From Candidatus Kryptoniota bacterium (GTDB lineage Bacteria; Bacteroidota; Ignavibacteria; Kryptoniales; JAKASW01): 48,503 nucleotides of DNA. The DNA lies in assembly GCA_024641705.1 (NCBI GenBank), contig JAHECO010000095.1:1-48503 (forward strand), given 5' to 3'. Positions 8,657-28,255 of this stretch are shown here, one piece after another. The first letter of the stretch is position 1. Each line of letters begins with the position of its first letter. The translations under genes were made by a program, and so were the position numbers. The notes beneath the pieces are model-generated. The model worked only from the letters and a program-made list of their open reading frames with translations, had not been told where the DNA came from and did not search any database.

Positions 8657-11023
8657 CTAGCTCATATTCCATTTCCAGTTCCGGATTTCCGGCATGTCCT
8701 CGCCGTGCTTGTCGATGTATTGCTTGTGTTCGATTAGGTTGTCCTTGAGCTGCTGTTTCAGGTAAATGCCCTTGTCCCCGGTCTGCGGGAGACGGTCGAT
8801 TGCATCCATCACGAGGTGGAAGCGGTCCAGCTCGTTCATTACCGTCATGTCGAAGGGCGTGGTGATTGTGCCCTCCTCCTTGTAGCCGCGAACGTGGATG
8901 TTGTGGTGGTTGGTGCGGCGGTAAGTGAGCCGGTGGATCAGCCACGGATAAGCATGGAAGGCGAAGATGACCGGCTTGTCCTTCGTGAAGAGCTCGTCGA
9001 AATCCACGTCAGAGAGGCCGTGTGGGTGTTCGGTTTGCGGCTCCAGTTTGAACAGGTCGACGACGTTGACAACCCGGATTTTTAACTCAGGCAGGTGTTC
9101 GCGCATGATGGAGACGGCGGCGAGTGTCTCCAGCGTGGGCACATCTCCGCAACAGGCCATGACCACGTCGGCCGCAACTTCCTGGTCGTTGCTGGCCCAC
9201 TGCCAGATGCCGATCCCCTCGGCACAGTGCTTGACGGCGGCATCCATCGCCAGCCACTGCGGAGCAGGGTGTTTACCCGCGATCACGACGTTGACGTAAT
9301 GGCGGCTGCGAAGGCAATGGTCCATGACCGACAGCAGGCAGTTTGCATCCGGCGGAAGATAAACCCGAACGACCTCGGCCTTCTTGTTCACGACGTGGTC
9401 GATGAAACCGGGGTCCTGGTGCGTGAAGCCGTTGTGATCCTGGCGCCAGACATGCGAGGCCAACACGTAGTTTAACGAGGCGATCTTCCGCCGCCAGGGC
9501 AGGTGCGAAGTGACCTTGAGCCACTTGGCATGCTGGTTGAACATCGAATCGACGATGTGGATGAACGCCTCGTAGCAGTTGAAGAGTCCATGCCGCCCCG
9601 TGAGCAGGTAGCCCTCGAGCCAGCCCTCGCACTGGTGCTCGCTGAGCATCTCCATCACTTGTCCATCCGGCGCAAGAAACTCGTCGTTCGGTTGGGTTCC
9701 GCCTTCCCATTGGCGGTTGGTCACTTCAAAGACGGCTTCGAGGCGGTTGGAAAGTGTCTCGTCGGGGGCGAAGACACGGAAATTTTTTTGCTCACTGTTC
9801 AGCTTTATCACATCTCGCACGAAACGGCCAAGCACATGCGTATCGCCGGTGCCGGGCGTTCCCGGCGAGGGCACATCGACCGCGTAGTCGCGGAAATCCG
9901 GCATCCGCAGGTCGCGGAGCAGCATGCCGCCGTTTGCGTGTGGATTCGCGCCCATGCGCCGCTCACCCTTGGGAGCAAGTTCTGCCAGTTCCGGTTTCAG
10001 GCGGCCCTGCCCATCGAAGAGTTCCTCAGGCCGGTAGCTCCTCAACCAGTCTTCGAGCATCTTCAGATGTTCCGGATGCGCGGCAGGATCGGAGAGCGGC
10101 ACCTGGTGCGCACGGAACGTGCCTTCGACCTGAAGGCCATCGATAATCTTCGGTCCCGTCCAGCCCTTAGGTGAATTGAGAACGATCATCGGCCAGCGGG
10201 GACGCGTGACATTGCCGTGTACGCGCGCGTCCTCCTGGATCTTCTTAATCTCCTCCACCACCGTGTCCAGTGTCGCGGCCATGGCCTCATGCATCTTCTC
10301 AGGCTCGTGACCTTCGACGAAGTAAGGCGTCCATCCATAGCCGCGAAGAAGCTGTTCAAGTTCCTCGTGGGTGATGCGGGCCAGGACGGTCGGGTTGGAA
10401 ATCTTGTAGCCGTTCAGATGGAGGATCGGCAACACTGCGCCGTCGGTGGCCGGATTGAGAAATTTGTTGGAATGCCATGCCGTGGCAAGCGGTCCGGTTT
10501 CCGCCTCTCCGTCGCCGACGACGCAGGCGACGATCAAATCGGGATTGTCGAACGCTGCCCCGAAGGAGTGGCTAAGTGAGTACCCAAGCTCGCCGCCCTC
10601 ATGTATTGAGCCCGGAGTTTCCGGCGATGCATGACTGGGGATTCCTCCGGGAAACGAAAACTGGATGAAGAGCTTCCGGAGCCCTGCCTCATCCTGGCTG
10701 ACATCGGGATATATTTCGCTGTATGTACCTTCGAGGTAAGTATTGCCGACGACGGCCGGGCCGCCGTGGCCGGGACCGGAGACGTAAATCATGTCCAGGT
10801 CGTATTTCTTGATAACCCGGTTCAAATGCACATAGATGAAGTTCTGCCCGGGGGTGGTGCCCCAGTGTCCTAACAGCATGTGCTTCACATCCGCAAGCGT
10901 CAGCGGCCGCTTCAAAAGCGGATTGTCATAAAGATATATCTGGCCGACCGAAAGATAGTTGGCGGCGCGCCAGTAAGCATCCATCTTGCGGAGCAAGTCA
11001 GGGGATGGAGTGTTTGTTTTCAT
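8657..11023 (-). CDS. xfp: Xylulose-5-phosphate/fructose-6-phosphate phosphoketolase
   Basis: This thiamine-diphosphate enzyme cleaves xylulose-5-P (and often fructose-6-P) with phosphate to acetyl phosphate plus glyceraldehyde-3-P (or erythrose-4-P). The 788-aa length and motifs are canonical: GPGHGGPA, the loop [60 protein letters not shown] for cofactor binding, and the C-terminal [20 protein letters not shown]. The ATG at 11023 has AAGGAAG upstream. It sits between the proton ATPase gene (106 bp upstream) and the MBL hydrolase gene, all on the minus strand. No acetate kinase gene is in the window, so how acetyl phosphate is used cannot be said from here. Confidence 0.96.
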
Positions 11024-11129
11024 CGTTCAATCTTCCTTTCTTGAGCCAAGGTCGAGAATGCGGCGAACCATTGTCGTTCAGGCGCCATCGTATTTCCAGA
11101 ACATGATGGGGCGCGCACTCGCAAGATAC

Positions 11130-13643
11130 CTACAGGGCCGGGCTCACAGCAGGGGCCGCATGTTCCTTTTTGCGGATGTCCAGTCTATTGTAGACTCGCA
11201 TCTTCGCCCAGTCTTCAATGAATATCCACACCAGACAGTAAGCCCAGATGTATCCGACCCAACTCCACGGTATGGCGGTAACAAATATTCCGAATCCAAC
11301 AATCGACGCTGCCAGGGCCTGCGTGAATAGTATCGCGCCCAGCAGAATTGGTGCGGGAAACGGTTTGGAAAAGAAGGGCTTCTTGCTCCTCGCTACGAAT
11401 AGTGTCAGGTGTCCGGCGACGACAAGCTTGAGGAATATGAGAGACTGCAGCTGGGCAACTCCGACTCCGAATACGACTTTCGCCAGATAGAGAAGTCCGA
11501 AGGTCTCAAAGACTCCGATAGTACCCAACACCGTGGCAGTAGTTAGAACACGTCGCATGTCCCACCTGACGGGCTGAGTATCGAGCCACGTGTTGTCATA
11601 AGCGATCGTCAGTATAGGAAGGTCGTTCAGTATCGCCAGGAGAATAATCATGAGTGCCGTTATCGGATAGAAATTGAAAACGAGCATGGCCAATACCATG
11701 AAGAGCATGATCCTTATCGTCTCGGTAATGCGGTAGATCGCATAACTGTTCATCCTTTCAAAGATGCGGCGCGCCGACTCGACTGCCCGGACTATTACCG
11801 ACAGGCCCGGAGCTGTCAACACAAGATCGGCAGCGGCTCGGGCAGCGTCAGTTGCTCCGCTTACCGCGATGCCCACATCGGCCTGCTTAAGCGCCGGCGC
11901 ATCATTAACACCGTCACCGGTCATTCCTACTATATGACCTCTGTGCTGGATGGCCTTGACAATTTCAAACTTGTGTTCGGGAAAGACCTGTGCAAATCCC
12001 TCCGCTGCTTCGACGCCCTTCTCGGAGTCTGCCGACATGTCCCCAGAGGAGGTCTTATCCTTGAAGAAACGATCCGCAGCTTCAATGTGAGTGCCAAGGC
12101 CGAGTTGGCCCGATATTTCCCTGGCGATAGCCACATTGTCGCCTGTCACCATCTTCACCGCGATGCCGTGCTCCCGGGCTCGCTTGATAGTGTCGGCCGA
12201 ATCCTCTCTCGGTGGATCGAAAAGCGGGAGCAGTCCCAGGAAATTCCAACCGGTGCTGTCGTCCGACCGGGCGACGCCAAGCGTGCGGTAACCTTTGCGG
12301 GCCAGGTCCTCGACACGAGCTTCGACAGAAGAAACGAGATCGTTATTGCCGCTGCACATATCCAACACAACCTGGGGAGCGCCTTTTGTCACCTTGAACG
12401 ATTGTCCGTCGGGGCCTTTTACGTCAGCTTCAGTTCGCTTGTGCACAGGATCGAAAGGGGAAAAGCGCATCTGATTGTAGTTTCCGATACCCCAACTGGA
12501 TTGAATCCCGGCAAGGACTGCGAGGTCTATAGGATCGCGGTTTTCTTCTTTTGACGCCAGCGCTCCCGCGACGATGAGTTCTTCCACTGTCGTTTTGCCG
12601 AACACCACCGGCTCACCCAATTCCAATTTGTTCTGCGTCAAAGTACCTGTCTTGTCGGAGCAAAGCACATCGACACCGGCCATCTCTTCAATTGATTCGA
12701 GCCGGGAAACTATTGCCTTCATTTTAGATAGCGCGACCGCTCCGATGGCCATTGTTATCGAGAGGACGGCGGGCATTGCTACAGGGATAGAGGCCACCAT
12801 GAGGATCAAAGCAAATTCCAGTATGTGAAGGACCTGATCCCCGCGGATTACCTGCACGATGAAAAGTATGACTACGAGAGCAAGGCTTAGTCGGATAAGG
12901 TAGTTGCCGATGTTCAGGACGGCTTTCTGGAAGTGAGACGGCGTTTTCGCAGTTGAGACTAGTTTTGCCGTCTTTCCAAAATACGTGTTCGCACCGGTCT
13001 CGACGGTCAAGGCAACCATTTCACCCTGTTTCGCCACGGAACCGGAGTAAGCTGCGTCGCCGGGTTTCTTGTCGACGGGCAGGGACTCGCCGGTCAGGGC
13101 GGATTGGTCTACGGACAGGTACTCCCCCTCCAGGAGTTTCACATCTGCCGGGATTATATCGCCAAGACGGAGTCTGATTATGTCGCCAGGGACGAGCGTT
13201 GTTGCATCGACTTCCGCCCATTTGCCGTCACGTTTGACGCGCGCCCTGACAGCCAGTTGTTTCTTGAGGGCCTCTATTGCGTTGGCAGCCTGATGCTCCT
13301 GCCAGAAGCCGACTACCGCATTGAAAGCCAGTAACACCATGATGATAATGAAATCGGTCCAGTGGCTCACAACTGCCGACAGGACGGCGGCGATTTCTAT
13401 CATCCACGGGATTGGTCCCCAAAAGTACGAGAGAAACTTGAGCAATATGCTTTCCTTTTTCTCTTCTATTGCGTTGGGGCCATACTCTGTCAGGCGCTTT
13501 TCTGCTTCCGATTGACTGAGTCCCTCGGCGGAAGTCTTTAGGCTCTTCAGAAGCTCTTCGGAGGGCTTCTCAAGTAGGTCTTCCCCGGTTGATCGTGAAC
13601 TAGTTGAAACGTTCTGTTTTTTGTCATTAATTGTCTTTTTCAT
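11130..13643 (-). CDS. Plasma-membrane proton-efflux P-type ATPase (P3A)
   Basis: This is a P3A-type ATPase, expected to pump protons out of the cytoplasm. In order it shows an N-terminal cation-ATPase domain (LTEYGPNAIEEKKES), a first hydrophobic pair near residues 70-115, the actuator loop with DQSALTGESLPV, the helix motif SIPVAMPAVLS, the phosphorylation site DKTGTLT near residue 330, MVTGDNVAIA and the hinge GDGVNDAPALKQADVGIAV, then C-terminal helices. The ATG at 13643 is chosen over the GTG four codons upstream because GAGG sits seven bases before it. Length (about 837 aa) is normal. It is first in a likely operon with phosphoketolase and the MBL hydrolase, which suggests a pH or energy-stress role (inference). 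Confidence 0.93.
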   Translation of the reverse strand: MKKTINDKKQNVSTSSRSTGEDLLEKPSEELLKSLKTSAEGLSQSEAEKRLTEYGPNAIEEKKESILLKFLSYFWGPIPWMIEIAAVLSAVVSHWTDFIIIMVLLAFNAVVGFWQEHQAANAIEALKKQLAVRARVKRDGKWAEVDATTLVPGDIIRLRLGDIIPADVKLLEGEYLSVDQSALTGESLPVDKKPGDAAYSGSVAKQGEMVALTVETGANTYFGKTAKLVSTAKTPSHFQKAVLNIGNYLIRLSLALVVILFIVQVIRGDQVLHILEFALILMVASIPVAMPAVLSITMAIGAVALSKMKAIVSRLESIEEMAGVDVLCSDKTGTLTQNKLELGEPVVFGKTTVEELIVAGALASKEENRDPIDLAVLAGIQSSWGIGNYNQMRFSPFDPVHKRTEADVKGPDGQSFKVTKGAPQVVLDMCSGNNDLVSSVEARVEDLARKGYRTLGVARSDDSTGWNFLGLLPLFDPPREDSADTIKRAREHGIAVKMVTGDNVAIAREISGQLGLGTHIEAADRFFKDKTSSGDMSADSEKGVEAAEGFAQVFPEHKFEIVKAIQHRGHIVGMTGDGVNDAPALKQADVGIAVSGATDAARAAADLVLTAPGLSVIVRAVESARRIFERMNSYAIYRITETIRIMLFMVLAMLVFNFYPITALMIILLAILNDLPILTIAYDNTWLDTQPVRWDMRRVLTTATVLGTIGVFETFGLLYLAKVVFGVGVAQLQSLIFLKLVVAGHLTLFVARSKKPFFSKPFPAPILLGAILFTQALAASIVGFGIFVTAIPWSWVGYIWAYCLVWIFIEDWAKMRVYNRLDIRKKEHAAPAVSPAL

Positions 13644-14396
13644 ATTGAACCTCACTGACTAGAAACTTTGCCTGCCGGTATCGGAATGTCATGGTGAATA
13701 TCAAAACCTTTTCGTATCATCTGCAAACCAAATCGTTGTGACGCATCTTCTCACATCGGCAATTGTACTTCCAACATGGCGGCATCGATAAGATGCGGTG
13801 ATAAGTAGCCTGGACCGAAATGGCAGATCGGATAGGCCGTTCCAGTAAGCGGTCCTTTTCGTCGGCGGTAAGGCGAGTGGTTGTAGTGGAACCCGAACAT
13901 GGTCATTCACGAATCGATCATAGGTAGCATCACCCGGAGAATATTATGTTCTCCAAAATCAGGGACCTGCGGGCAAATCCATTCACCGGCAGGAAAACCG
14001 AAACGGCTCGCGAGGAGCATCATCGTTTGCGGAGCCATGAATCTATATGGAAAGGCGGGATGGAAAGCCTGTAACCCTGATGCCAGCTTCCGGTATGGCC
14101 CAATGAGAACCAAATCAGTCAAAGGCTAACGCATCATCGCTCAATGTGCATCAGGCTTTTTACACACGTTCGACTTTCAACTTCCTTGTATAAGGTAAGC
14201 AAAAATTGGGCAAAGAGAAATGGTCAGCGGCCTGGAACGAGTGTTAGCATGCACCACGCGATCAGACCTGACACCGATAAGCAGATGGCCCTGCGACGGT
14301 ATTTTCTATTTAATGAAGATTCTGGTACATTGTGTAAAGAAATCGTTAGTTGTCATGAGGCCGACAACAGAAGTACCATATACAAAAAGACCCACC
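13644..14396. other. Gene-poor region between divergent genes
   Basis: This ~750-bp gap should hold the promoters of the H+-ATPase operon (leftward) and the HEAT-repeat gene (rightward). The only ORF with a natural-looking composition is the small one at 13907-14122 on the minus strand. No IS end or 28-bp repeat was recognised, and no promoter could be assigned with confidence. Confidence 0.4.
13907..14122 (-). CDS. Small hypothetical protein, doubtful
   Basis: This 71-codon frame reads MTDLVLIGPYRKLASG, then a Phe/Pro-rich middle with PYRFMAPQTMMLLASRFGFP, and ends in VMLPMIDS. I do not recognise the family. The residue mix looks more protein-like than nearby chance frames, but no clear ribosome site was seen. 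It could be a genuine small gene, the remnant of a larger one, or a chance ORF. Confidence 0.2.
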   Translation of the reverse strand: MTDLVLIGPYRKLASGLQAFHPAFPYRFMAPQTMMLLASRFGFPAGEWICPQVPDFGEHNILRVMLPMIDS

Positions 14397-15822: not shown

Positions 15823-16086
15823 ATGGAGAGGGGACACATCAAAAGATTCTGGAAGTGGCTTTGGAGGAAATCCCCGGACGAATTGATCTCAGGAAATGCG
15901 CCTAAGTATAAAGAGCCAACCGGAATAACCTGGTTGAATGTGCACAGGTTATTCGATTTCAGGAGATGGCGAAATCCGCGTTTCACATTATTTCTCCGGA
16001 GAAGAGGCATAACGGCGGCCGGTCGCGTGAATCTATCTACGCCCGGGCGCCGTGACCGAACAGGCGCTTCGGGTTCAGGAGTCTGA
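15823..16086 (+). CDS. Small basic protein of a duplicated pair, copy 1
   Basis: I do not recognise this 87-aa family. It has a clear paralogue in the window at 27468-27686. Shared features are an N-terminal IKRF/VKRF, a DELI/DEMI segment, the core TGI(T/S)WLNVHRLFDFR and an Arg/Trp/Phe-rich tail (RNPRF..RRR). It is strongly basic, with no signal peptide and no membrane segment. The ATG at 15823 has AAGGA nine bases upstream, and CGGCAGAAAGGAA there is also conserved before the paralogue. The C-terminal 20 residues are not shared. It is followed 118 bp later by a Dps-like gene, and the same arrangement is repeated in the second copy, so the two proteins probably act together. DNA or RNA binding is a guess from charge only. 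Confidence 0.75.
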   Translation: MERGHIKRFWKWLWRKSPDELISGNAPKYKEPTGITWLNVHRLFDFRRWRNPRFTLFLRRRGITAAGRVNLSTPGRRDRTGASGSGV

Positions 16087-16150
16087 GCAGTTTTTGCGCG
16101 TCCTTTTAGTGGGGTATGCTTCCCGGTCGTAAGACGGATTGAAACAGAAG

Positions 16151-16190
16151 CGCCGTCTGCCGGCTCGAGATAATGATTAATCTCATGAAC
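16151..16190 (+). promoter_or_regulatory. Conserved spacer motif before Dps-like gene, copy 1
   Basis: The spacer contains CGCCGTCTGCCGGCTCGAG, a short variable stretch, then GATTAATCTCATGAAC. The same block occurs at 27727-27766 in the second locus, although the rest of the spacer is not alike. It may be a hairpin, an operator or an internal promoter; the sequence alone does not decide. Confidence 0.5.
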
Positions 16191-16204: not shown

Positions 16205-16663
16205 ATGGGACCTGGAATAGAAGTCCTCGATAAAAAATCGGCGCGAGTCGCCGAATTCCTCGGATCACTGCTGGCCGACGAGTACATGATTGCCGTGAGA
16301 ACGAGGGACGCGCGGCGGAATGTATACGGGAGAAACGTCACCGGGCTGCGTAAGTTGTTCGGGGAACACTGCACGTATCTGGACGGAGTTGTCGTTGAAA
16401 TATCACGGAGAGTCCGCGCGCTGGGACGAGTCGCTTCGGTCACCTTTGCACACTCCATGAAAGCCACGCGGCTTAACCGGCATAACGAGAAACTTACCGG
16501 CCAAAATCAAATCATCGAAGCCCTGCTTGATGATCACGAATCCGTGATCCGCTCACTGACCGGCGCGGGGAGCAGTCAGACCGAGCGTGACATCCTGGAT
16601 TTTGTGGCCGGCCTGCTGGGACGACACCTGGAAATGGTCGACTCTCTCAGGGAATGGCTGTAG
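16205..16663 (+). CDS. Dps/ferritin-like protein lacking ferroxidase ligands, copy 1
   Basis: The 152-aa protein follows the Dps family pattern: LLADEYMIAVRTRD helix, the HWNVxG-type segment as RRNVYGRNVTGLRKLF (residues 37-52), and the closing LLDDHESVIRSL..LLGRHLEMVDSLREW. Dps proteins form 12-mers that bind DNA and oxidise iron at subunit interfaces. Aligned by eye with E. coli Dps, the four iron ligands H51, H63, D78 and E82 are replaced by R37, R49, V64 and R68, so iron oxidation is unlikely. A paralogue lies at 27794-28255. Upstream is the small basic protein, and the glycosyltransferase begins 36 bp downstream. The ATG at 16205 has a weak AGAAAG site. A structural or DNA-binding role is possible but unproven. 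Confidence 0.75.
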   Translation: MGPGIEVLDKKSARVAEFLGSLLADEYMIAVRTRDARRNVYGRNVTGLRKLFGEHCTYLDGVVVEISRRVRALGRVASVTFAHSMKATRLNRHNEKLTGQNQIIEALLDDHESVIRSLTGAGSSQTERDILDFVAGLLGRHLEMVDSLREWL

Positions 16664-16699: not shown

Positions 16700-18337
16700 T
16701 TGAGCCTCTCGAACTATAAATCACTCAAGACACCCGGTCAAACCCTAATCTCTAACAGGATAAGACCAAAGCATTTGAGGGGAATAGTGACCGGGAAGGC
16801 GGGGAAGTGGTATTCGCTTGGGTTTGTTCTCGTTATCGTCATATGCACGGCAGGAATCGTCCTCTACCGGATCGACAATCGGGCGTTTCTCTATTTTGGT
16901 GACGCAGCATCGCGTCTCGTCAGGTCGCGCGAGTTCATAGATTCGCAGCACCCCGGCTTAGGCAACATCGGCACCGTCTGGCTTCCCCTCCCGCAGCTCT
17001 TGCTAATTCCTTTCGCATCGATCAACGGTCTCTTCTATTCGGGCATAGCCGGAGCGATGGTCGGCATTCCATACCTGGTGGGCACGGGCCTCCTACTCTT
17101 CGCGATTATCCGGAGAATCACGCGCTCGCGTCCGATCGCTTTTCTCGGTGCATGTCTGTTTGCACTTAACCCTAATGTCGTTTACATGGCACTCACCCCG
17201 ATGAGCGAGACAAGTCTCTTCTTCTTTGTCGCCCTCGGCGGGTATGCGCTTCTGCGATGGCTCGAGACGGACACTGCGAAGTGGCTCTATTTGTGCGCCG
17301 TTGCTGTGATGCTGGCAACTTTATGCCGCTATGAAGCCTGGATTCTCGCTCCGTTTGTCGTGCTTGTGAGCGCATCGAAGGGAATCGGTTTCTGGAAGGA
17401 ATCCCAAAGGCTGTCAACTTTTCGGATAGCTGCGACTGCAGCAATTTCTTTTGCAGGGATTGCATTCTGGCTCACCTGGAACGCGGCAGAATATGGCAAT
17501 GCGTTGGAATTTCTGCATTGGTCGGCTTTCATTTCCCTGGCCGTCCTTCACGAATCGCTGCATCATAATGCGCTGGCCAACCTTGTCACATTCGGACGGG
17601 CGGTTTCGAGCATCTTCGGCCCGGTTTTGATCCTGGTCGCCGCCGGCGCGTTCCTACACTTCCGCCGCAAGGTTGCAGCCCGGAAGCGGGTAGTACTCCT
17701 GGCATTCTTCAGCCTCCCTCCGCTCTTCATCTTCGTCGCCCTGATGACCGGCCGTATATACATGGATCCATGGTGGTGGAATTGGCGGTTCGCGCTGACG
17801 TTAGGCATGTTCCTGTCGGTGGCAGGAGCAATGGGGCTATCTGAATTATTCAACAGGGTCCGGTCAATGTCCGTACGCCTCACCGTGGTTGCGGGCCTTA
17901 TTGCCATGCCTCTAATCCAACTCGCAGTGCCGGCAGTGGGCGTTGCAACTTTCAATGATGCCGCAAAGAGTCGTCATGATATGACCCGGTACTCAACGGT
18001 TTTGGGAGAACGGCTGCACTCCGCAGATGATAAGAGCTCCATCGCCCTCCTGACGGGATACGGTGAGGCGGAGAGGATCATGATATCCAGCGGATTGCCG
18101 CTGAGGAGATTCCACATCATCGCGTATCCGGATAAGTGGGATTCTCTTGAGCCGCTGCTGAGCTCCGACCGCTATTTAGTGGTCGAGGACGATTTGACGC
18201 CGAGATCAGAGGAGTTGATCGATAATTGGCTCTCCCGCGCGGCGCCGCAACTTGGCAATTTCAGGATTTCTCACGAAAACGGCCCGTATATGCTCATGGA
18301 AAGCGAGGAAGCATTTGCCTTGAAGGGAATCAAATGA
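16700..18337 (+). CDS. GT39-like membrane glycosyltransferase
   Basis: This ~545-aa protein has about 10 or more hydrophobic helices and resembles the dolichyl/undecaprenyl-phosphate-mannose family (GT39/PMT/ArnT-like, GT-C fold). The first periplasmic loop carries the acidic FGDAASRLVRSREF motif followed by the amphipathic stretch GTVWLPLPQLLLIPF, typical for the class. A soluble C-terminal part (about residues 430-545) follows the helices. The TTG at 16700 is the only start giving the full frame; GTG 16788, just before the first helix, is an alternative. It lies 36 bp after the Dps-like gene and 27 bp before the GT4 gene, so it is likely in the same operon. The sugar and acceptor cannot be read, though mannose would suit its neighbours. 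Confidence 0.75.
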   Translation: MSLSNYKSLKTPGQTLISNRIRPKHLRGIVTGKAGKWYSLGFVLVIVICTAGIVLYRIDNRAFLYFGDAASRLVRSREFIDSQHPGLGNIGTVWLPLPQLLLIPFASINGLFYSGIAGAMVGIPYLVGTGLLLFAIIRRITRSRPIAFLGACLFALNPNVVYMALTPMSETSLFFFVALGGYALLRWLETDTAKWLYLCAVAVMLATLCRYEAWILAPFVVLVSASKGIGFWKESQRLSTFRIAATAAISFAGIAFWLTWNAAEYGNALEFLHWSAFISLAVLHESLHHNALANLVTFGRAVSSIFGPVLILVAAGAFLHFRRKVAARKRVVLLAFFSLPPLFIFVALMTGRIYMDPWWWNWRFALTLGMFLSVAGAMGLSELFNRVRSMSVRLTVVAGLIAMPLIQLAVPAVGVATFNDAAKSRHDMTRYSTVLGERLHSADDKSSIALLTGYGEAERIMISSGLPLRRFHIIAYPDKWDSLEPLLSSDRYLVVEDDLTPRSEELIDNWLSRAAPQLGNFRISHENGPYMLMESEEAFALKGIK

Positions 18338-18364: not shown

Positions 18365-20695
18365 ATGTCATTCTCGCCGAGAAGCGAGGGAAATAACGAG
18401 GACAAAACGGAACACGTGTCGACTACTTCCACGATTGATCGCATCGCCTTCATCGGCAACTACCTGCCGCGCCAATGCGGCATCGCTACTTTTACGACAG
18501 ACTTGTGCGAGGCCATGGCCTCCGAATACGGTGATAAGGCTTTCATATCCCTGCCCGTAAACGATAACGAGGCGGGCTACGATTATCCCGAGCGCGTCAG
18601 GTTTGAGCTGACCGAGAAAGATCTCGATTCATACCGGCGCGCCGCCGACTTTCTTAACATCAATAACGTGGATCTTGCCTGCCTCCAATTCGAGTACGGT
18701 ATATTCGGCGGACGGGCGGGAAGCCACATCCTGGCGCTCATCCGCGAATTGCGGATGCCGATCGTGACAACTCTGCACACCATTCTCCGCAACCCCGACT
18801 CCGATCAGCGGCGCGTGCTGGAAGAGGTTGCCGCTGTATCCGACCGGCTGGTCGTCATGAGTGATCGGGGTGCCGAGTTTCTCCAGGAAGTCTATCACGT
18901 GACTCCCGAGAAAATAGACAGAATTCCGCACGGCATTCCCGATGTGCCGTTTGCCGATCCAAGCTTCAACAAGGACATGTTCGGTGTCGAGGGTAAGATA
19001 GTCCTGCTGAGTTTCGGGTTGCTTTCGCCGAACAAGGGGATCGAGACTGTCGTCGGCGCCCTTCCCGATATTGTGGCACGTTATCCGAATACAGTGTACA
19101 TGATAGTCGGTGCGACCCATCCTCACGTGATACAGCATGATGGCGAAGCGTACCGCTTGTCCCTGCAATGGCTGGCGCAGGAAAAGGGAGTCGAGAGTAA
19201 TGTGATCTTCTACAATCGCTTTGTCAGCTTGGAGGAGCTTCTAGAGTTCATCAGTGCCGCGGACATTTATATCACGCCGTATCTCAACGCGGCACAGATC
19301 GTTTCCGGCACGCTCGCTTACACGCTGGGCGCGGGCAAAGCGGTCATCTCGACGCCTTATTGGTATGCCGAAGAAGTGCTTGCGGAAGGGCGGGGCGCAC
19401 TCGTCCCTTTCAACGACCCTGCGGCGATGGCCGGCCAGGTGATTAACCTGCTGGGCAACGAGTCGGAGCGACAAGCCATGCGTAAAAAGGCGTATCTGTT
19501 TGCGCGGGCGATGATCTGGCCGCAGGTCGCGCGGCGTTATATGGAGAGTTTCGATCGCGCCCGGGCCGAGCGGCGGCATTTCAGCTCGCCGGGCTTCACG
19601 GTCAAAGCGCTTGATAAACGTCCGGGCGAATTACCTCCTCTCAAGCTGGATCACTTGCACCGCATGACGGACGAGACCGGTATGCTGCAGCACGCACTTT
19701 TCACTGTGCCCAATTACCGGGAGGGGTACACCACGGATGACAACGCGCGCGCGTTAATGGTGAGTGCCCTGCTGGAAGAACTCGGCAACGGCGAAGCGCT
19801 GGAATTAGCGTCCCGCTATCTTGCCTTCGTCTGGTACGCCTTCAACGCTGAATCCGGCCGGTTTCGCAACTTCATGGATTACCAGCGCCACTGGCGGGAA
19901 GAAAAAGGGTCGGATGACAGTCACGGCCGCGCTTTGTGGGCGCTGGGCACATTGCTCGGCCGTTCAAATACGCCGACACTGCAGAGCATGGCGGGGAAAC
20001 TGTTCGAACAGACTATCCACCCTATCTTGGAGATGACAAGTCCGCGGGCCTGGGCTTTTGCTCTCATAGGCATCCATGAATACGTGCAGAGGTTTGCGGG
20101 TGATCGCCTGGCCGGTCAGGTGCGCGAAGAATTATCCGGCAGGCTTCTGACACTTTACCAAAGACATGGGGTCGATGAATGGCGGTGGTACGAAGATGTG
20201 CTGACATACTGCAATGCCGCTCTGCCGCACGCGTTGCTGTTGAGCGGCAAGTCGCTTGCCGACAAGGAAATGATTGACGCCGGTTTGGAGTCGCTGATCT
20301 GGTTGATGAACCTACAGCGTACCGATGCCGAAGGAGGTCACTTCGTCCCGATAGGATCGAACGGTTTCTATGAACGCAGCGGCAAGCGAGCGCGATTCGA
20401 CCAACAGCCGGTGGAGGCCCAGGCTACTGTGTCCGCATGCCTGGTCGCGTACAGGATTACCGGAGACAAAAGCTGGCGCAGGGAAGCCCGGCGCGCGTTC
20501 GAGTGGTTCCTGGGACGAAACGACCTGAACCTTCCCATATATGACCCGACAACCGGAGGCTGCCGTGACGGGCTGCACCCCGATCGCCCGAATGAAAACC
20601 AGGGGGCAGAATCGACGCTCGCTTTCCTTCAATCTTTGCTGGAGCTGCGACTGGATGAAAGTACTTTTCAATCAATGGAGACAAAAGTCCAATGA
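18365..20695 (+). CDS. GT4 glycosyltransferase fused to an (alpha/alpha)-barrel-like domain
   Basis: The N-terminal ~400 residues are a GT-B glycosyltransferase of family GT4: FIGNYLPRQCGIATFTTDL at the start, LQFEYGIFGG, VTTLHTIL, IPHGIPD, LLSFGLLSPNKGIE and the donor-site ITPYLNAAQIVSGTLAYTLGAGKAV. The remaining ~370 residues contain helical repeats (NYREGYTTDDNARALMVSAL, GSDDSHGRALWALGTLL, RWYEDVLTYCNAALPHALL), recalling N-acylglucosamine epimerase or glycosidase-type barrels. The start could be ATG 18365 or GTG 18416; the latter has GAGGA 13 bases upstream. Its stop overlaps the GH130 start (ATGA), so both are translated together. It probably builds a mannose-containing glycan or glycoside, by analogy with GT4-GH130 pairs. 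Confidence 0.85.
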   Translation: MSFSPRSEGNNEDKTEHVSTTSTIDRIAFIGNYLPRQCGIATFTTDLCEAMASEYGDKAFISLPVNDNEAGYDYPERVRFELTEKDLDSYRRAADFLNINNVDLACLQFEYGIFGGRAGSHILALIRELRMPIVTTLHTILRNPDSDQRRVLEEVAAVSDRLVVMSDRGAEFLQEVYHVTPEKIDRIPHGIPDVPFADPSFNKDMFGVEGKIVLLSFGLLSPNKGIETVVGALPDIVARYPNTVYMIVGATHPHVIQHDGEAYRLSLQWLAQEKGVESNVIFYNRFVSLEELLEFISAADIYITPYLNAAQIVSGTLAYTLGAGKAVISTPYWYAEEVLAEGRGALVPFNDPAAMAGQVINLLGNESERQAMRKKAYLFARAMIWPQVARRYMESFDRARAERRHFSSPGFTVKALDKRPGELPPLKLDHLHRMTDETGMLQHALFTVPNYREGYTTDDNARALMVSALLEELGNGEALELASRYLAFVWYAFNAESGRFRNFMDYQRHWREEKGSDDSHGRALWALGTLLGRSNTPTLQSMAGKLFEQTIHPILEMTSPRAWAFALIGIHEYVQRFAGDRLAGQVREELSGRLLTLYQRHGVDEWRWYEDVLTYCNAALPHALLLSGKSLADKEMIDAGLESLIWLMNLQRTDAEGGHFVPIGSNGFYERSGKRARFDQQPVEAQATVSACLVAYRITGDKSWRREARRAFEWFLGRNDLNLPIYDPTTGGCRDGLHPDRPNENQGAESTLAFLQSLLELRLDESTFQSMETKVQ

Positions 20696-21657
20696 ACCAC
20701 CACTTTCCCGAGCTGTTTCTCCGCAATAAATCGAATCCTATTCTTACTGCAGCCGACTGGCCCTACCCGGTCAACACTGTCTTGAATCCGGGGGCGACTC
20801 TGCTGCCCGATGGGTCCACGCTGCTTCTATGCCGGGTGGAGGACCGGCGGGGATTATCCCATCTGTGTGCCGCGCGTTCTGCAAATGGCGTGGACAACTG
20901 GCAGATCGACAGCCGCCCCACCCTCCCGGCTGACCCGGAACACTTTCCCGAAGAGCTGTGGGGAATAGAAGACCCGCGCATCACCTTCGTTCCCGAATTA
21001 GGAAAATACGTGGTCGTGTACACGGCTTACAGTCACGACGGACCCGGCGTAGCTCTCGCGCTCACGGAGGATTTCGTCTCCTTCGAAAGATTAGGACTTA
21101 TAATGCAGCCGGAGGACAAGGACGCGGCACTCCTCCCGCGCCGTTTTGACGGTCACTGGGCGTTGATCCATCGTCCCGTAAATGCACCCGGTGCGCACAT
21201 GTGGATCTCGTACTCGGCAAACCTGAAGCATTGGGGCGGTCACAAGATGATGCTGGAAGCAAGGCTCGGAGGCTGGTGGGACGCAAACAAGATCGGGCTA
21301 TCCGCCCCGCCTATCGAGACCCCGCGGGGATGGCTCGCGATCTACCACGGAGTACGACAGACTGCCGCCGGCTCCATCTACCGGCTAGGTCTGGCATTGT
21401 TCGATCTGCAAGCGCCCGATCGCTGTTTGCTGCGTGGTGATGAATGGATGTTCGGTCCGGAAGAAGATTACGAGCGCCACGGCGACGTCGACGACGTGGT
21501 CTTTCCATGCGGATACACTGTTGATCTTGATGGAGATACGATTCGAGTGTATTACGGCGCGGCAGATTCATGCATCGCACTGGCTACCGGCAGCATACGC
21601 ACGATGCTCGAGTGGCTCGACCGGCACAAATGTAAAACACCCGAGGCGGATCACTGA
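20692..21657 (+). CDS. GH130 beta-mannoside phosphorylase-like protein
   Basis: The protein belongs to glycoside hydrolase family 130, five-bladed propeller enzymes that phosphorolyse or hydrolyse beta-mannosides such as mannosylglucose or mannobiose. Signatures are NPGATLLPDGSTLLLCRVEDRRG split across blades 1-2, ELWGIEDPRITF around the general-acid region, KDAALLPRRFDGHWALIHRP with phosphate-site basic residues, WDANKIGLSAPPIETPRGWL and IRVYYGAADSCIALA near the end. The length of 321 aa fits. Its ATG overlaps the stop of the GT4 gene, suggesting coupled synthesis and turnover of one mannoside. The retained HRP motif makes phosphorylase more likely than hydrolase, but the substrate is unknown. 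Confidence 0.88.
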   Translation: MNHHFPELFLRNKSNPILTAADWPYPVNTVLNPGATLLPDGSTLLLCRVEDRRGLSHLCAARSANGVDNWQIDSRPTLPADPEHFPEELWGIEDPRITFVPELGKYVVVYTAYSHDGPGVALALTEDFVSFERLGLIMQPEDKDAALLPRRFDGHWALIHRPVNAPGAHMWISYSANLKHWGGHKMMLEARLGGWWDANKIGLSAPPIETPRGWLAIYHGVRQTAAGSIYRLGLALFDLQAPDRCLLRGDEWMFGPEEDYERHGDVDDVVFPCGYTVDLDGDTIRVYYGAADSCIALATGSIRTMLEWLDRHKCKTPEADH

Positions 21658-21961: not shown

Positions 21962-22387
21962 ATGTTTGAAAGCAGACAGACTTCTCCCGTTGAATCTGCA
22001 ATCAATATCCGGATCGTCGGCCTCAACACCGACAAAACCCGCAGAATGATTGCATCGGAGACTTTATACCAGGTCTATTTTGAACTTTCCGGAATTCCCC
22101 CGCAGGGGTGGAGAACTGTATTTGAGCAGGAGTGGAAAGCCTTGAATGTGGGGCAACCGCTGGCGTTGCAGGAAACGACCATAGAGAGAGCGTTTCTTAT
22201 GATGCAGTGCCCGCTGCGGGAAGTTGCCAACCACCTGCCGGTTCTGAAACAGGCGGTTGCTGCAGCAAATATTGCTTACGAGCAGTATGCCCGAAAACAA
22301 GCGTCGGAACAAAAAGACCGCGAGGATGCCTGGAAGGATGAGCGGAAGACCGTCGAAGATGCTGCAAAGTCATTGCACTTCGATTGA
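21962..22387 (+). CDS. Hypothetical protein
   Basis: I do not recognise this 141-aa protein. It starts at ATG 21962 with GAGGTG five bases upstream. The N-terminal half reads as alternating strands and helices (INIRIVGLNTDKTRRM, LYQVYFELSGIPPQGW), and the C-terminal third is a charged helix (YEQYARKQASEQKDREDAW). It has no signal peptide or membrane segment. It is the first of three small plus-strand genes between the glycan operon and the STAS-like gene. The good ribosome site and balanced composition support a real gene. Confidence 0.65.
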   Translation: MFESRQTSPVESAINIRIVGLNTDKTRRMIASETLYQVYFELSGIPPQGWRTVFEQEWKALNVGQPLALQETTIERAFLMMQCPLREVANHLPVLKQAVAAANIAYEQYARKQASEQKDREDAWKDERKTVEDAAKSLHFD

Positions 22388-25581: not shown

Positions 25582-25743
25582 CCGGGCTTTAGGCGGCGGT
25601 ATGTCGGATGGTGCATCACGCGGCTATCACCGGATTGCACGAGTCCTTCGGGTTGGGTAACTTCTGTTGAGTTCTATGTGTCAGGACCCGTCCGAATATT
25701 ACTAGGGCATCGTGCAAGACAGGCACCCCAAACCGGAGAACGC

Positions 25744-26439
25744 GTGGCTGAGAAGATTAGACTGCTGATCATCGAAGACAATCCGCTGCTCCGTGAGGGT
25801 ATTTCGGCAATAGTCAGGAGAAACTCGGATATCAGGGTGGTCTCCGAGCCGGGGAGCCGCAAGAAATCCCTCCAGAAAGTTCGAGATCTCAAGCCGAACG
25901 TACTCCTTCTCGACCTCGGGCTGAGAGGCCAGAGCAGCCTGGAAATAGTCCGGTCGGTCAAGTCGAATTTTCCTCATGTGAAGGTCATAGTCATGGACCT
26001 TGCTCCGACAGAGACAGACATCCTGCTCTTCGTGCGCGCTGGGGTGTCCGGTTTCGTCCTGAAGGGTGCCACGACGGAAGATTTTCTGAGGACCATCCGC
26101 GCAGTGGCCCGCGGAAAGAAGGTCCTGCCGCAGCTGATGACCGAATCGCTCTTCTCCCAGATCGTGGAGCAGGCCGTCAGCGGGAAAATTACCTCGAGAG
26201 TCATCGAAGCCGTTCGGATGACCAAGCGCGAACGCCAGGTTATATCGCTGATAGCAGAGGGACTCTCGAACAAAGAGATCGCCGATAATCTTCATCTCTC
26301 CACTTACACCGTGAAGAGCCACGTCCATAATATCCTCGAGAAACTTCTCCTTCGTTCCCGTGTCCAGATCGCGAAATACGCGCTGACAAATTCGGAGCTG
26401 ATGAAAGCGGAGGAAAGCATTACTCTCATCGAGGAGTAA
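25744..26439 (+). CDS. LuxR-type response regulator with an atypical receiver, 1
   Basis: This is a two-domain NarL/FixJ-type response regulator. The receiver has acidic residues E11/D12, the likely phospho-acceptor D57 (LLLDLGLRGQ) and K107 (FVLKG). The usual switch Thr/Ser is replaced by D85 (VIVMDLAP). A LuxR helix-turn-helix follows (MTKRERQVISLIAEGLSNK, YTVKSHVHNIL). The GTG at 25744 is preferred: GGAGA lies five bases upstream and the receiver begins at once. A paralogue follows at 26620, with the small basic protein and Dps-like pair behind it. No histidine kinase gene is present nearby. Control of the neighbouring pair is inferred from position only. Confidence 0.85.
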   Translation: MAEKIRLLIIEDNPLLREGISAIVRRNSDIRVVSEPGSRKKSLQKVRDLKPNVLLLDLGLRGQSSLEIVRSVKSNFPHVKVIVMDLAPTETDILLFVRAGVSGFVLKGATTEDFLRTIRAVARGKKVLPQLMTESLFSQIVEQAVSGKITSRVIEAVRMTKRERQVISLIAEGLSNKEIADNLHLSTYTVKSHVHNILEKLLLRSRVQIAKYALTNSELMKAEESITLIEE

Positions 26440-26619
26440 CTCCCCTCCTGAAAAGGGCTAATCCCGTTTTCATCCTCTTGGACGATTGAATCCGCGTACA
26501 TCTGAGCCTAGCTTGATGTCGTGATGAATTCATGGAGTCGCCTTTCCCCGATTGACACGAGCCGCCGGAACACGAGCGATTACCGGGTGAATTCGGTAGT
26601 TAAACGTCAGGAGCATCGA

Positions 26620-27309
26620 ATGAAGAAGACCAGGCTTTTACTCATCGAAAAAAATCGCATGCTGAGGGAGGGACTCGCGGCGATTCTCAAGAAACGAGAC
26701 GACATTACAATAGTCGCGGCGTCCGGCGACAGCGAGAACACGATTCTCAAACTCCATAAATTGAGACCCAACGTGATTCTCCTGGATCTCAACCTACGCA
26801 GCCAGAATAGTCTGCACGTAGTCAGCCTCGTGAAGAAGGAGTTTCCCGAAGCGAAAGTAGTCGTAATGGATCTGGCTCCCGTTCACGGAGACGTTGTTCA
26901 ATATGTCAAGGCCGGGGCCTCCGGTTTCATACTGAAAGACGCGACGATGGACGACTTCATCGTTACGATACAGACCGTTTCTAAAGGCGGACAGGTTCTC
27001 CCGCCCACGCTTGCCGATTCCCTTTTTTCGCAAATTGTGGAACAGGCAATCAAGGGAAAGAAAGTCAAGGTAACGGAACCTGTCAGGATGACGAAGACCG
27101 AGAAAGAGATATTCGGACTCCTCGGCAACGGCCTCAGCGACAAGCAAATCGGGGAGAAGATTCACGCGCCCACCCAGACCGTCCGGACGCAGCTTAAGGC
27201 GATCATGAGGAAGCTGACATTGCATACCCGTCTGGAGATTCGGGATTATAAATACACTGATGGGACTCTCGAGACGATTGTCGGAAGCATATCCGTGGTC
27301 GGCAACTGA
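26620..27309 (+). CDS. LuxR-type response regulator with a degenerate receiver, 2
   Basis: This paralogue of the preceding gene has the same layout. The acidic pair is altered to E10-K11 (LLLIEKNRML), D56 remains, the switch residue is again Asp (D84 in VVVMDLAP), and K106 is present. The C-terminal LuxR domain is diverged (TKTEKEIFGLLGNGLSD, TQTVRTQLKAIMRKL). The lysine in the acidic pocket suggests that Mg-dependent phosphorylation is lost or altered. The ATG at 26620 has CAGGAG seven bases upstream; an earlier in-frame ATG lacks this. It ends 158 bp before the small basic protein copy 2. Confidence 0.82.
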   Translation: MKKTRLLLIEKNRMLREGLAAILKKRDDITIVAASGDSENTILKLHKLRPNVILLDLNLRSQNSLHVVSLVKKEFPEAKVVVMDLAPVHGDVVQYVKAGASGFILKDATMDDFIVTIQTVSKGGQVLPPTLADSLFSQIVEQAIKGKKVKVTEPVRMTKTEKEIFGLLGNGLSDKQIGEKIHAPTQTVRTQLKAIMRKLTLHTRLEIRDYKYTDGTLETIVGSISVVGN

Positions 27310-27467: not shown

Positions 27468-27686
27468 GTGGAAGGGGAACGAGTGAAAAGATTCTTGAGC
27501 AGATTTCGGATGGAATCTCTGGACGAAATGATCTACGGGAATGGGCCCAAGCATAAACAAGCGACCGGGATCTCATGGTTGAACGTTCACAGGCTTTTCG
27601 ATTTTCGTTGGTGGCGGCGACTTCGTTTCAGGTTGTACCCTTGGCGGAAAAAGAGAGCGCTGTCCGGGCGCCCACGAATTGGCTAG
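27468..27686 (+). CDS. Small basic protein of a duplicated pair, copy 2
   Basis: This 72-aa protein is the paralogue of 15823-16086. It shares VKRF, SLDEMIYGN, PKHKQATGISWLNVHRLFDF and a basic Trp/Arg/Phe tail. The GTG at 27468 aligns with the ATG of copy 1, and AAGGAAA stands nine bases upstream within a conserved CGGCAGAAAGGAA block. The family is unknown to me. It is followed 107 bp later by the second Dps-like gene, and the shared spacer motif lies at 27727-27766. Conservation of the protein core with divergent ends shows selection on the central 45 or so residues. Confidence 0.75.
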   Translation: MEGERVKRFLSRFRMESLDEMIYGNGPKHKQATGISWLNVHRLFDFRWWRRLRFRLYPWRKKRALSGRPRIG

Positions 27687-27726
27687 GTAGGTCATGAATC
27701 TCGGCCGTCAGAGGGAATGAGCAAAA

Positions 27727-27766
27727 CGCCGTCTGGCGGCACGAGGTGCGGGATTAATTTCATTAA
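27727..27766 (+). promoter_or_regulatory. Conserved spacer motif before Dps-like gene, copy 2
   Basis: CGCCGTCTGGCGGCACGAG is followed by GATTAATTTCATTAAC. The first part can form a CGCC/GGCG hairpin with a four-base loop. It matches 16151-16190 in the first locus at about four out of five positions. Confidence 0.5.
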
Positions 27767-27793: not shown

Positions 27794-28255
27794 TTGGAAC
27801 CTGCAGCGGGCAGGGGGAAAAATGAAGCGTCGGTACTCGATAAATTGTTGGCTGACGAATACGTGCTTTACATGAGAACGCGCGACGGAAGTAGGAACAT
27901 ACCCGAAAGCAGTCCTTTCGAAGTGCATGAATTGTTCCGGGGCCAGTGCGAGTCGATGAGTTCGATAGTTGCCGGCGTGAGCAGGATGGTGCGCGTGTTC
28001 GGGCCCATGCCGTCTTTCGTGCATGAGAAGTTCATGGCGATCACCAGGTTGAACGCGCACGGCGGGCCATTCGCTAAGCAGAATGAAGTCATCGAAGCCC
28101 TGCTCGATGATCACGAATCCATCATACATATATTGAGAAACGACAAAGCCCGTCATGAGGACCTTCGTACGGTTATCAGCACCGCAGAATTTATGGCGGG
28201 CTTGTTGAAACAACATGAGGAGATGGCGGGAGCCCTCAAAGGATGGCTGCAATGA
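27794..28255 (+). CDS. Dps/ferritin-like protein lacking ferroxidase ligands, copy 2
   Basis: This is the paralogue of 16205-16663, 153 aa. It shows KLLADEYVLYMRTRDGSRNI, then FEVHELF, a central helix with VSRMVRVFG and the C-terminal ALLDDHESIIHIL..LLKQHEEMAGALKGW. Against E. coli Dps the ligand positions are S33 (for H51), H45 (H63 kept), A60 (D78) and R64 (E82), so at most one of four iron ligands survives. TTG at 27794 is the likely start, with AAGGGGAAAT upstream. A 415-bp gap with no gene follows, so unlike copy 1 it does not run into glycan genes. A role as a Dps-shaped DNA-binding or shell protein without iron chemistry is inferred. Confidence 0.75.
   Translation: MEPAAGRGKNEASVLDKLLADEYVLYMRTRDGSRNIPESSPFEVHELFRGQCESMSSIVAGVSRMVRVFGPMPSFVHEKFMAITRLNAHGGPFAKQNEVIEALLDDHESIIHILRNDKARHEDLRTVISTAEFMAGLLKQHEEMAGALKGWLQ

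Follow-up and report, generated by a model that had tools for sequence, protein, structure and literature searches.

The ferritin L-chain is a ferritin subunit that has no catalytic centre and has nonetheless been kept in evolution, in a 24-mer family where it forms hetero-oligomers with the H-chain. Among Dps proteins, the Lactococcus lactis paralogues DpsA and DpsB are not known to carry iron at the ferroxidase site. Both bind DNA by an N-terminal helix (PMC13319912, PMC5553809). H. pylori NAP (HP-NAP) is a tail-less Dps, reported to bind DNA through a positive surface (cited in PMC5553809), and it retains a di-nuclear ferroxidase centre (PMC4192664). Furthermore, DPSL (thioferritin) and NpDps5-type Dps are dodecameric family members without the Dps ferroxidase site, whose internal ExxH site resembles that of bacterioferritin and is accompanied by a Cys pair (PMC12532284). 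Such centres are often taken to be universal in Dps, and a 2026 paper states that every member of the family possesses one (PMC13319912). We sought a direct description of a ferroxidase-less Dps in the open literature and found none; that not all Dps show ferroxidase activity has been noted in general terms (PMC3613396), and the interest of the case described here is the single origin of such a form, its duplication, and the genomes in which the dead form alone was found.

The gene under study, copy A, lies together with a paralogue, copy B, in a stretch of 48,503 nucleotides from a Candidatus Kryptoniota bacterium (contig JAHECO010000095.1), hereafter the window (Table 1). Copy A shares with E. 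coli Dps and P. aeruginosa PA0962 (PDB 8ff9) a predicted four-helix bundle with a BC helix, the length, and helices A-B that align without gaps, but unlike canonical Dps it lacks the five inter-subunit ligands, W52, the acidic helix-B positions and the Lys-rich N-terminal tail. It is tail-less like HP-NAP, though without the di-nuclear centre. A and B form a Dps paralogue pair as DpsA and DpsB do, a likeness drawn by description only, and copy A has no N-terminal extension of their kind. The absence of the Dps ferroxidase site is common to copy A and the DPSL/NpDps5 type, whose ExxH site and Cys pair are both missing from copy A. The resemblance to the ferritin L-chain, finally, extends to the loss of the centre, whereas any partner of copy A is hypothetical.

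Table 1. Positions of the features considered in the window, and of broken Dps-like copies in sister species.
Feature	Position	Strand	Remarks
Iron-dead Dps-like protein A (copy A)	16205..16663	+	152 aa, ATG start; sequence homology, predicted fold and ligand alignment
Iron-dead Dps-like protein B (copy B), paralogue of A	27794..28255	+	153 aa, TTG start; S33/H45/R49/A60/R64
Small ORF, 87 aa, very basic (pI ~12)	15823..16086	+	conserved 5' of many copies
Intercistronic hairpin element, 81 nt	16109..16189	+	just upstream of copy A; 17-bp stem, ~15-nt loop
PMT-type membrane glycosyltransferase	16700..18337	+	directly 3' of copy A
GT4 glycosyltransferase, 776 aa	18365..20695	+	syntenic with Dps-like gene in relatives, with canonical Dps in G054
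GH130 family protein	20692..21657	+	syntenic with GT4
NarL-type response regulator RR1	25678..26439	+	always 5' of copy B or single-copy locus
NarL-type response regulator RR2	26521..27309	+	family match
Small ORF upstream of copy B, 72 aa, GTG start	27468..27686	+	conservation
Second hairpin element	27687..27766	+	upstream of copy B
Broken/remnant Dps-like copies in sister species	L037:14247-14696; L048:9112-9234; L082:1874-1954		in-frame stop, truncation

The reading frame of copy A is present just as the original prediction had described it, and the Dps fold claimed for it proved right at the level of prediction. Copy A matches the NCBIfam Dps model PRK09448 (E 1.6e-7), its 31.5 bits being far under the equivalog cut-off of 114, and Pfam Ferritin with 22.8 bits, slightly under the cut-off of 24.5. 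Its best PDB match in a single-sequence search is Dps 8ff9 (E 8e-8), which the profile of the whole clade reaches with E 2e-15. The AlphaFold2 model of the monomer, built from eight sequences (pLDDT 85.8, pTM 0.82), places helices at 10-39, 45-72, 81-87, 100-124 and 128-150, i.e., a four-helix bundle plus a short BC helix, and Dps crystal structures occupy the top rows when this model is compared by Foldseek and VIA-align (TM 0.85, Z ~21). Since these family, PDB and fold matches are independent of the ligand positions, sequence and model together indicate that copy A is a true Dps homologue with a Dps fold. An assembly artefact or chimera is ruled out by orthologues with conserved synteny in many independent MAGs. 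A scan of IMG/VR with copy A gave no relatives, the canonical-Dps profile recovered there five distant canonical-type Dps, which entered only the fold alignment, and a plasmid collection held just three ordinary Dps of ~30% identity.

The loss of the iron site is fuller than first claimed. R37, R49, V64 and R68 had been proposed to stand for H51, H63, D78 and E82, and the MAFFT alignment with E. coli Dps (sequence identical to PDB 1f30), which is ungapped over the key ligand segment, gives the same four residues; the count was nevertheless too low, as a fifth ligand, D67, is replaced by G53 and the Trp neighbouring H51 by R38 (W52->R38). Moreover, the helix-B acidic positions common to canonical relatives (47, 57, 58, 61) are neutral or basic in copy A, and a search for other His, Asp or Glu residues at the interface left by alignment D60 as the sole acid of the region, which is ancestral and not new. 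R37, R38 and R49 are invariant in the seven A orthologues despite 62-68% overall identity to copy A, and D78 and E82 are absent from all 14 members of the clade, which argues that these changes go beyond chance. From its sequence, copy A would thus be devoid of ferroxidase activity, and it is in this sense that we call the form iron-dead.

It is extremely improbable that ferroxidase activity has been kept through an unrecognised site. Noncanonical sites do exist in Dps, either of the cyanobacterial His type (PMC6675082) or bacterioferritin-like, as in DPSL (PMC12532284), but a search for [DE]xxH found no such motif in copies A and B, so that an internal ExxH centre of helices B and D is excluded by motif and alignment, and the acidic positions of helix B are lost as well. 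The His-type centre is likewise ruled out: it keeps His (PMC6675082) where copy A has Arg and Val, E. coli position 78 being V64 and both conserved His being Arg.

Copy B, whose TTG start comes after AAAGGGGAAATAAA, keeps one ligand His, H45. The host genome also encodes on contig 37 a canonical Dps with H-H-E-D-E ligands, as well as two other ferritin-domain proteins. Within the genus, intact iron-dead copies occur in nine of 13 genomes (G labels are ours): group A in G000, G001, G003, G008, G011 and G010, the two copies of the latter possibly coming from mixed strains (4% contamination); intact group B in G000, G010, G011 and G012; G006 and G009 have one copy each. In a survey covering 294 genomes of the class, members of the clade were found in this genus alone, scores dropping directly from 199 to 157 bits, and every Dps inspected outside the genus is canonical (H-H-E-D-E in 13/13 of one set, H-H-Q/E-D-E in others). 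In the maximum-likelihood tree the 14 iron-dead sequences form one clade (support 100/100) that joins the canonical Dps of G008 (G008b) and G054 at 96/99, indicating a single origin of the iron-dead form in the genus. Ligand positions differ among A, B, G006 and G009, and H51 or H63 persists in G009 and some B copies. Because some members keep one of these His while all 14 lack D78 and E82, loss of the carboxylates probably preceded that of the histidines.

Copy A is invariably found 5' of either GT4-GH130 or the PMT-type glycosyltransferase, and copy B invariably 3' of two NarL-type response regulators, while the one copy of G006 is flanked by both groups, response regulators on one side and glycosyltransferase genes on the other. 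In G054, which belongs to another family, a canonical HHEDE Dps fills the slot between a response regulator and GT4-GH130. The ancestor was probably a canonical Dps located between a NarL-type response regulator and the GT4-GH130 pair and later duplicated into A and B; in the simplest history, the Dps at this slot lost its centre before a duplication placed copies at both ends of the island.

Other features of the region deserve mention in their own right. The GT4-GH130 pair (18365-21657) is 84-93% identical across the genus, and its GT4 protein has a long C-terminal region past the glycosyltransferase match. A conserved 141-aa ORF without a Pfam family lies 3' of GH130 (21962-22387; 73-79% identity in relatives). 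At 8657-13655, a phosphoketolase adjoins a cation/proton-type P-type ATPase and a beta-CASP metallo-hydrolase, near the two response regulators, a grouping that may mark a stress or dormancy island.

Pairwise Nei-Gojobori estimates with bootstrap 95% intervals give omega values of 0.18-0.42 for pairs of A copies and 0.16-0.29 for pairs of B copies, the upper limits of iron-dead copies being at most 0.56. The value is 0.05 for canonical Dps and, in the usable pairs (G000, G001, G003 and G006 only), 0.03-0.07 for the neighbouring GT4; G010 and G011 were left out of the GT4 comparison because their codons were misaligned or out of frame. Iron-dead Dps is under purifying selection, roughly five times weaker than that on canonical Dps and on GT4, and within A the constraint is stronger in the central segments (25-110) than towards the ends. 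The main rival explanation, the decay of a redundant copy, starts from here: a second Dps would have lost its catalytic site and be drifting to a pseudogene, with fold stability weakly selected. Indeed, omega is 0.2-0.4 against 0.05 in canonical Dps, ligand positions vary between the lineages, an in-frame stop interrupts the B copy of G001, truncated remnants are left in G002 and G005, and G003 has kept the small ORF of its B locus while the Dps-like gene behind it is absent. Nevertheless, the reading frame is kept in all intact copies with bounded omega, three arginines are invariant among the A orthologues, as is Cys56 in all twelve proteins of groups A and B, and redundancy with canonical Dps fails in the five genomes that carry the iron-dead form and where no canonical Dps was found. 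Altogether, we consider decay somewhat unlikely. Conservation of the altered sequence by purifying selection makes the switch to another function, suggested by the original prediction, plausible, but the weakness of that selection and the pseudogenes of sister species leave decay as a serious rival; for the signalling role also suggested, we found nothing specific in its favour.

Surface properties separate the two paralogues. Canonical relatives have a mean net charge of -7.4 per monomer and group B one of -6.6, against +1.1 for group A, a shift of about +8.5 from canonical Dps to A; the pI of A members is mostly 8.5-9, two of them having 6.1-6.4. A Lys/Arg-rich terminal tail is absent from copy A, whose N-terminus is MGPGIEVLDKKSAR, with the helix from residue 10, and whose C-terminus ends in helix D. 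Judging from its composition, group A may possibly use its surface to bind DNA or other polyanions, and the charge shift lends indirect support to the DNA compaction that the original prediction had suggested. Such DNA binding would not extend to both paralogues, given the mostly acidic character of group B.

All canonical relatives have Tyr at position 56, aligned with E. coli R70, where the 12 proteins of groups A and B without exception have Cys. As E. coli positions 63 and 78 meet across the two-fold axis in an antiparallel pairing of helix B, position 70 should adjoin this axis, which would set Cys56 beside the dimer dyad. It could then be imagined that R37, R38, R49 and R68 constitute with Cys56 a new ligand site, the interface serving for anion binding or for disulfide/redox chemistry. 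The Y56->C change throughout A and B, the three ligand positions occupied by Arg and the placement of residue 56 next to the dyad would suit this idea, but the R68 position varies within A (R, G, S) and Cys56 is missing in G006 and G009, which makes it improbable.

The charge difference between basic A and mostly acidic B bears also on a further alternative, namely that the dead chain is an accessory subunit, assembling together with a catalytic Dps or in an A-B mixture, as the ferritin L-chain does with the H-chain. A canonical Dps coexists with an iron-dead copy in G000, G001, G008 and G009, in tandem in G008; however, such a partnership would not be obligatory, since the five genomes mentioned above have no detected canonical Dps and A or B is often found alone. 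We regard this possibility as quite unlikely.

Both copies have their own leader. The hairpin also precedes most iron-dead copies of relatives, including the G002 remnant, and was searched for at canonical Dps loci, where it was not found. In nine related sequences, six pairs changed on both sides, a number reached by 2 of 500 shuffles, and slid controls were far lower, which gives moderate evidence for covariation in the stem. A genome-wide regulon motif is ruled out, as the element occurs in two places only in the host genome, and Rfam over 13.6-28.7 kb yielded two sub-threshold matches to eukaryotic RNAs, judged to be chance. The small ORFs, with a strong AAAGGAA ribosome-binding site, match nothing in Pfam and NCBIfam and belong to a genus-only family of 68-94 aa and pI ~12, with the core SLDELISGN..KY...GISWLNVHRLFDFRRWR and a structure prediction of pLDDT 59.5 and pTM 0.22, too poor to inform on the fold. 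No such ORF precedes copy A in G001, G003, G011 and G010:C60, and in a few places the ORF occurs without a Dps-like gene.

Weighing these data, our preferred explanation, which we hold to be about evenly poised between right and wrong, is that copy A is a Dps-fold subunit without ferroxidase chemistry, retained for a role of the Dps shell other than iron oxidation. The erased ligands in a kept fold, the omega limits below 0.57, the invariance of R37, R38 and R49 and the genomes where the iron-dead form alone was found support such a re-purposed cage, and it is weakened by an omega about five times the canonical value and by the broken or missing copies of G001 (B), G002, G003 (B) and G005. According to the model, copy A would still assemble as a dodecamer, and it would neither oxidise nor store iron any longer. 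The basic, tail-less group A might bind DNA or another polyanion via its surface or the Arg-lined dimer interface, acting as a passive protective shell that could be controlled by the neighbouring NarL-type regulators. A more elaborate scheme, very unlikely as a whole, would see a genus-specific iron-dead system of basic A and acidic B, with its own hairpin leaders and an often co-encoded basic small protein, as a regulated polyanion-binding shell in which an Arg-lined, Cys56-stabilised dimer interface has replaced iron chemistry.

The clade constitutes a dated set of natural variants in which the cage function of Dps is set apart from iron chemistry, and in a relative the same slot holds the canonical form. 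Furthermore, the five genomes where the iron-dead form alone was found make the role of an iron-less Dps cage directly testable.
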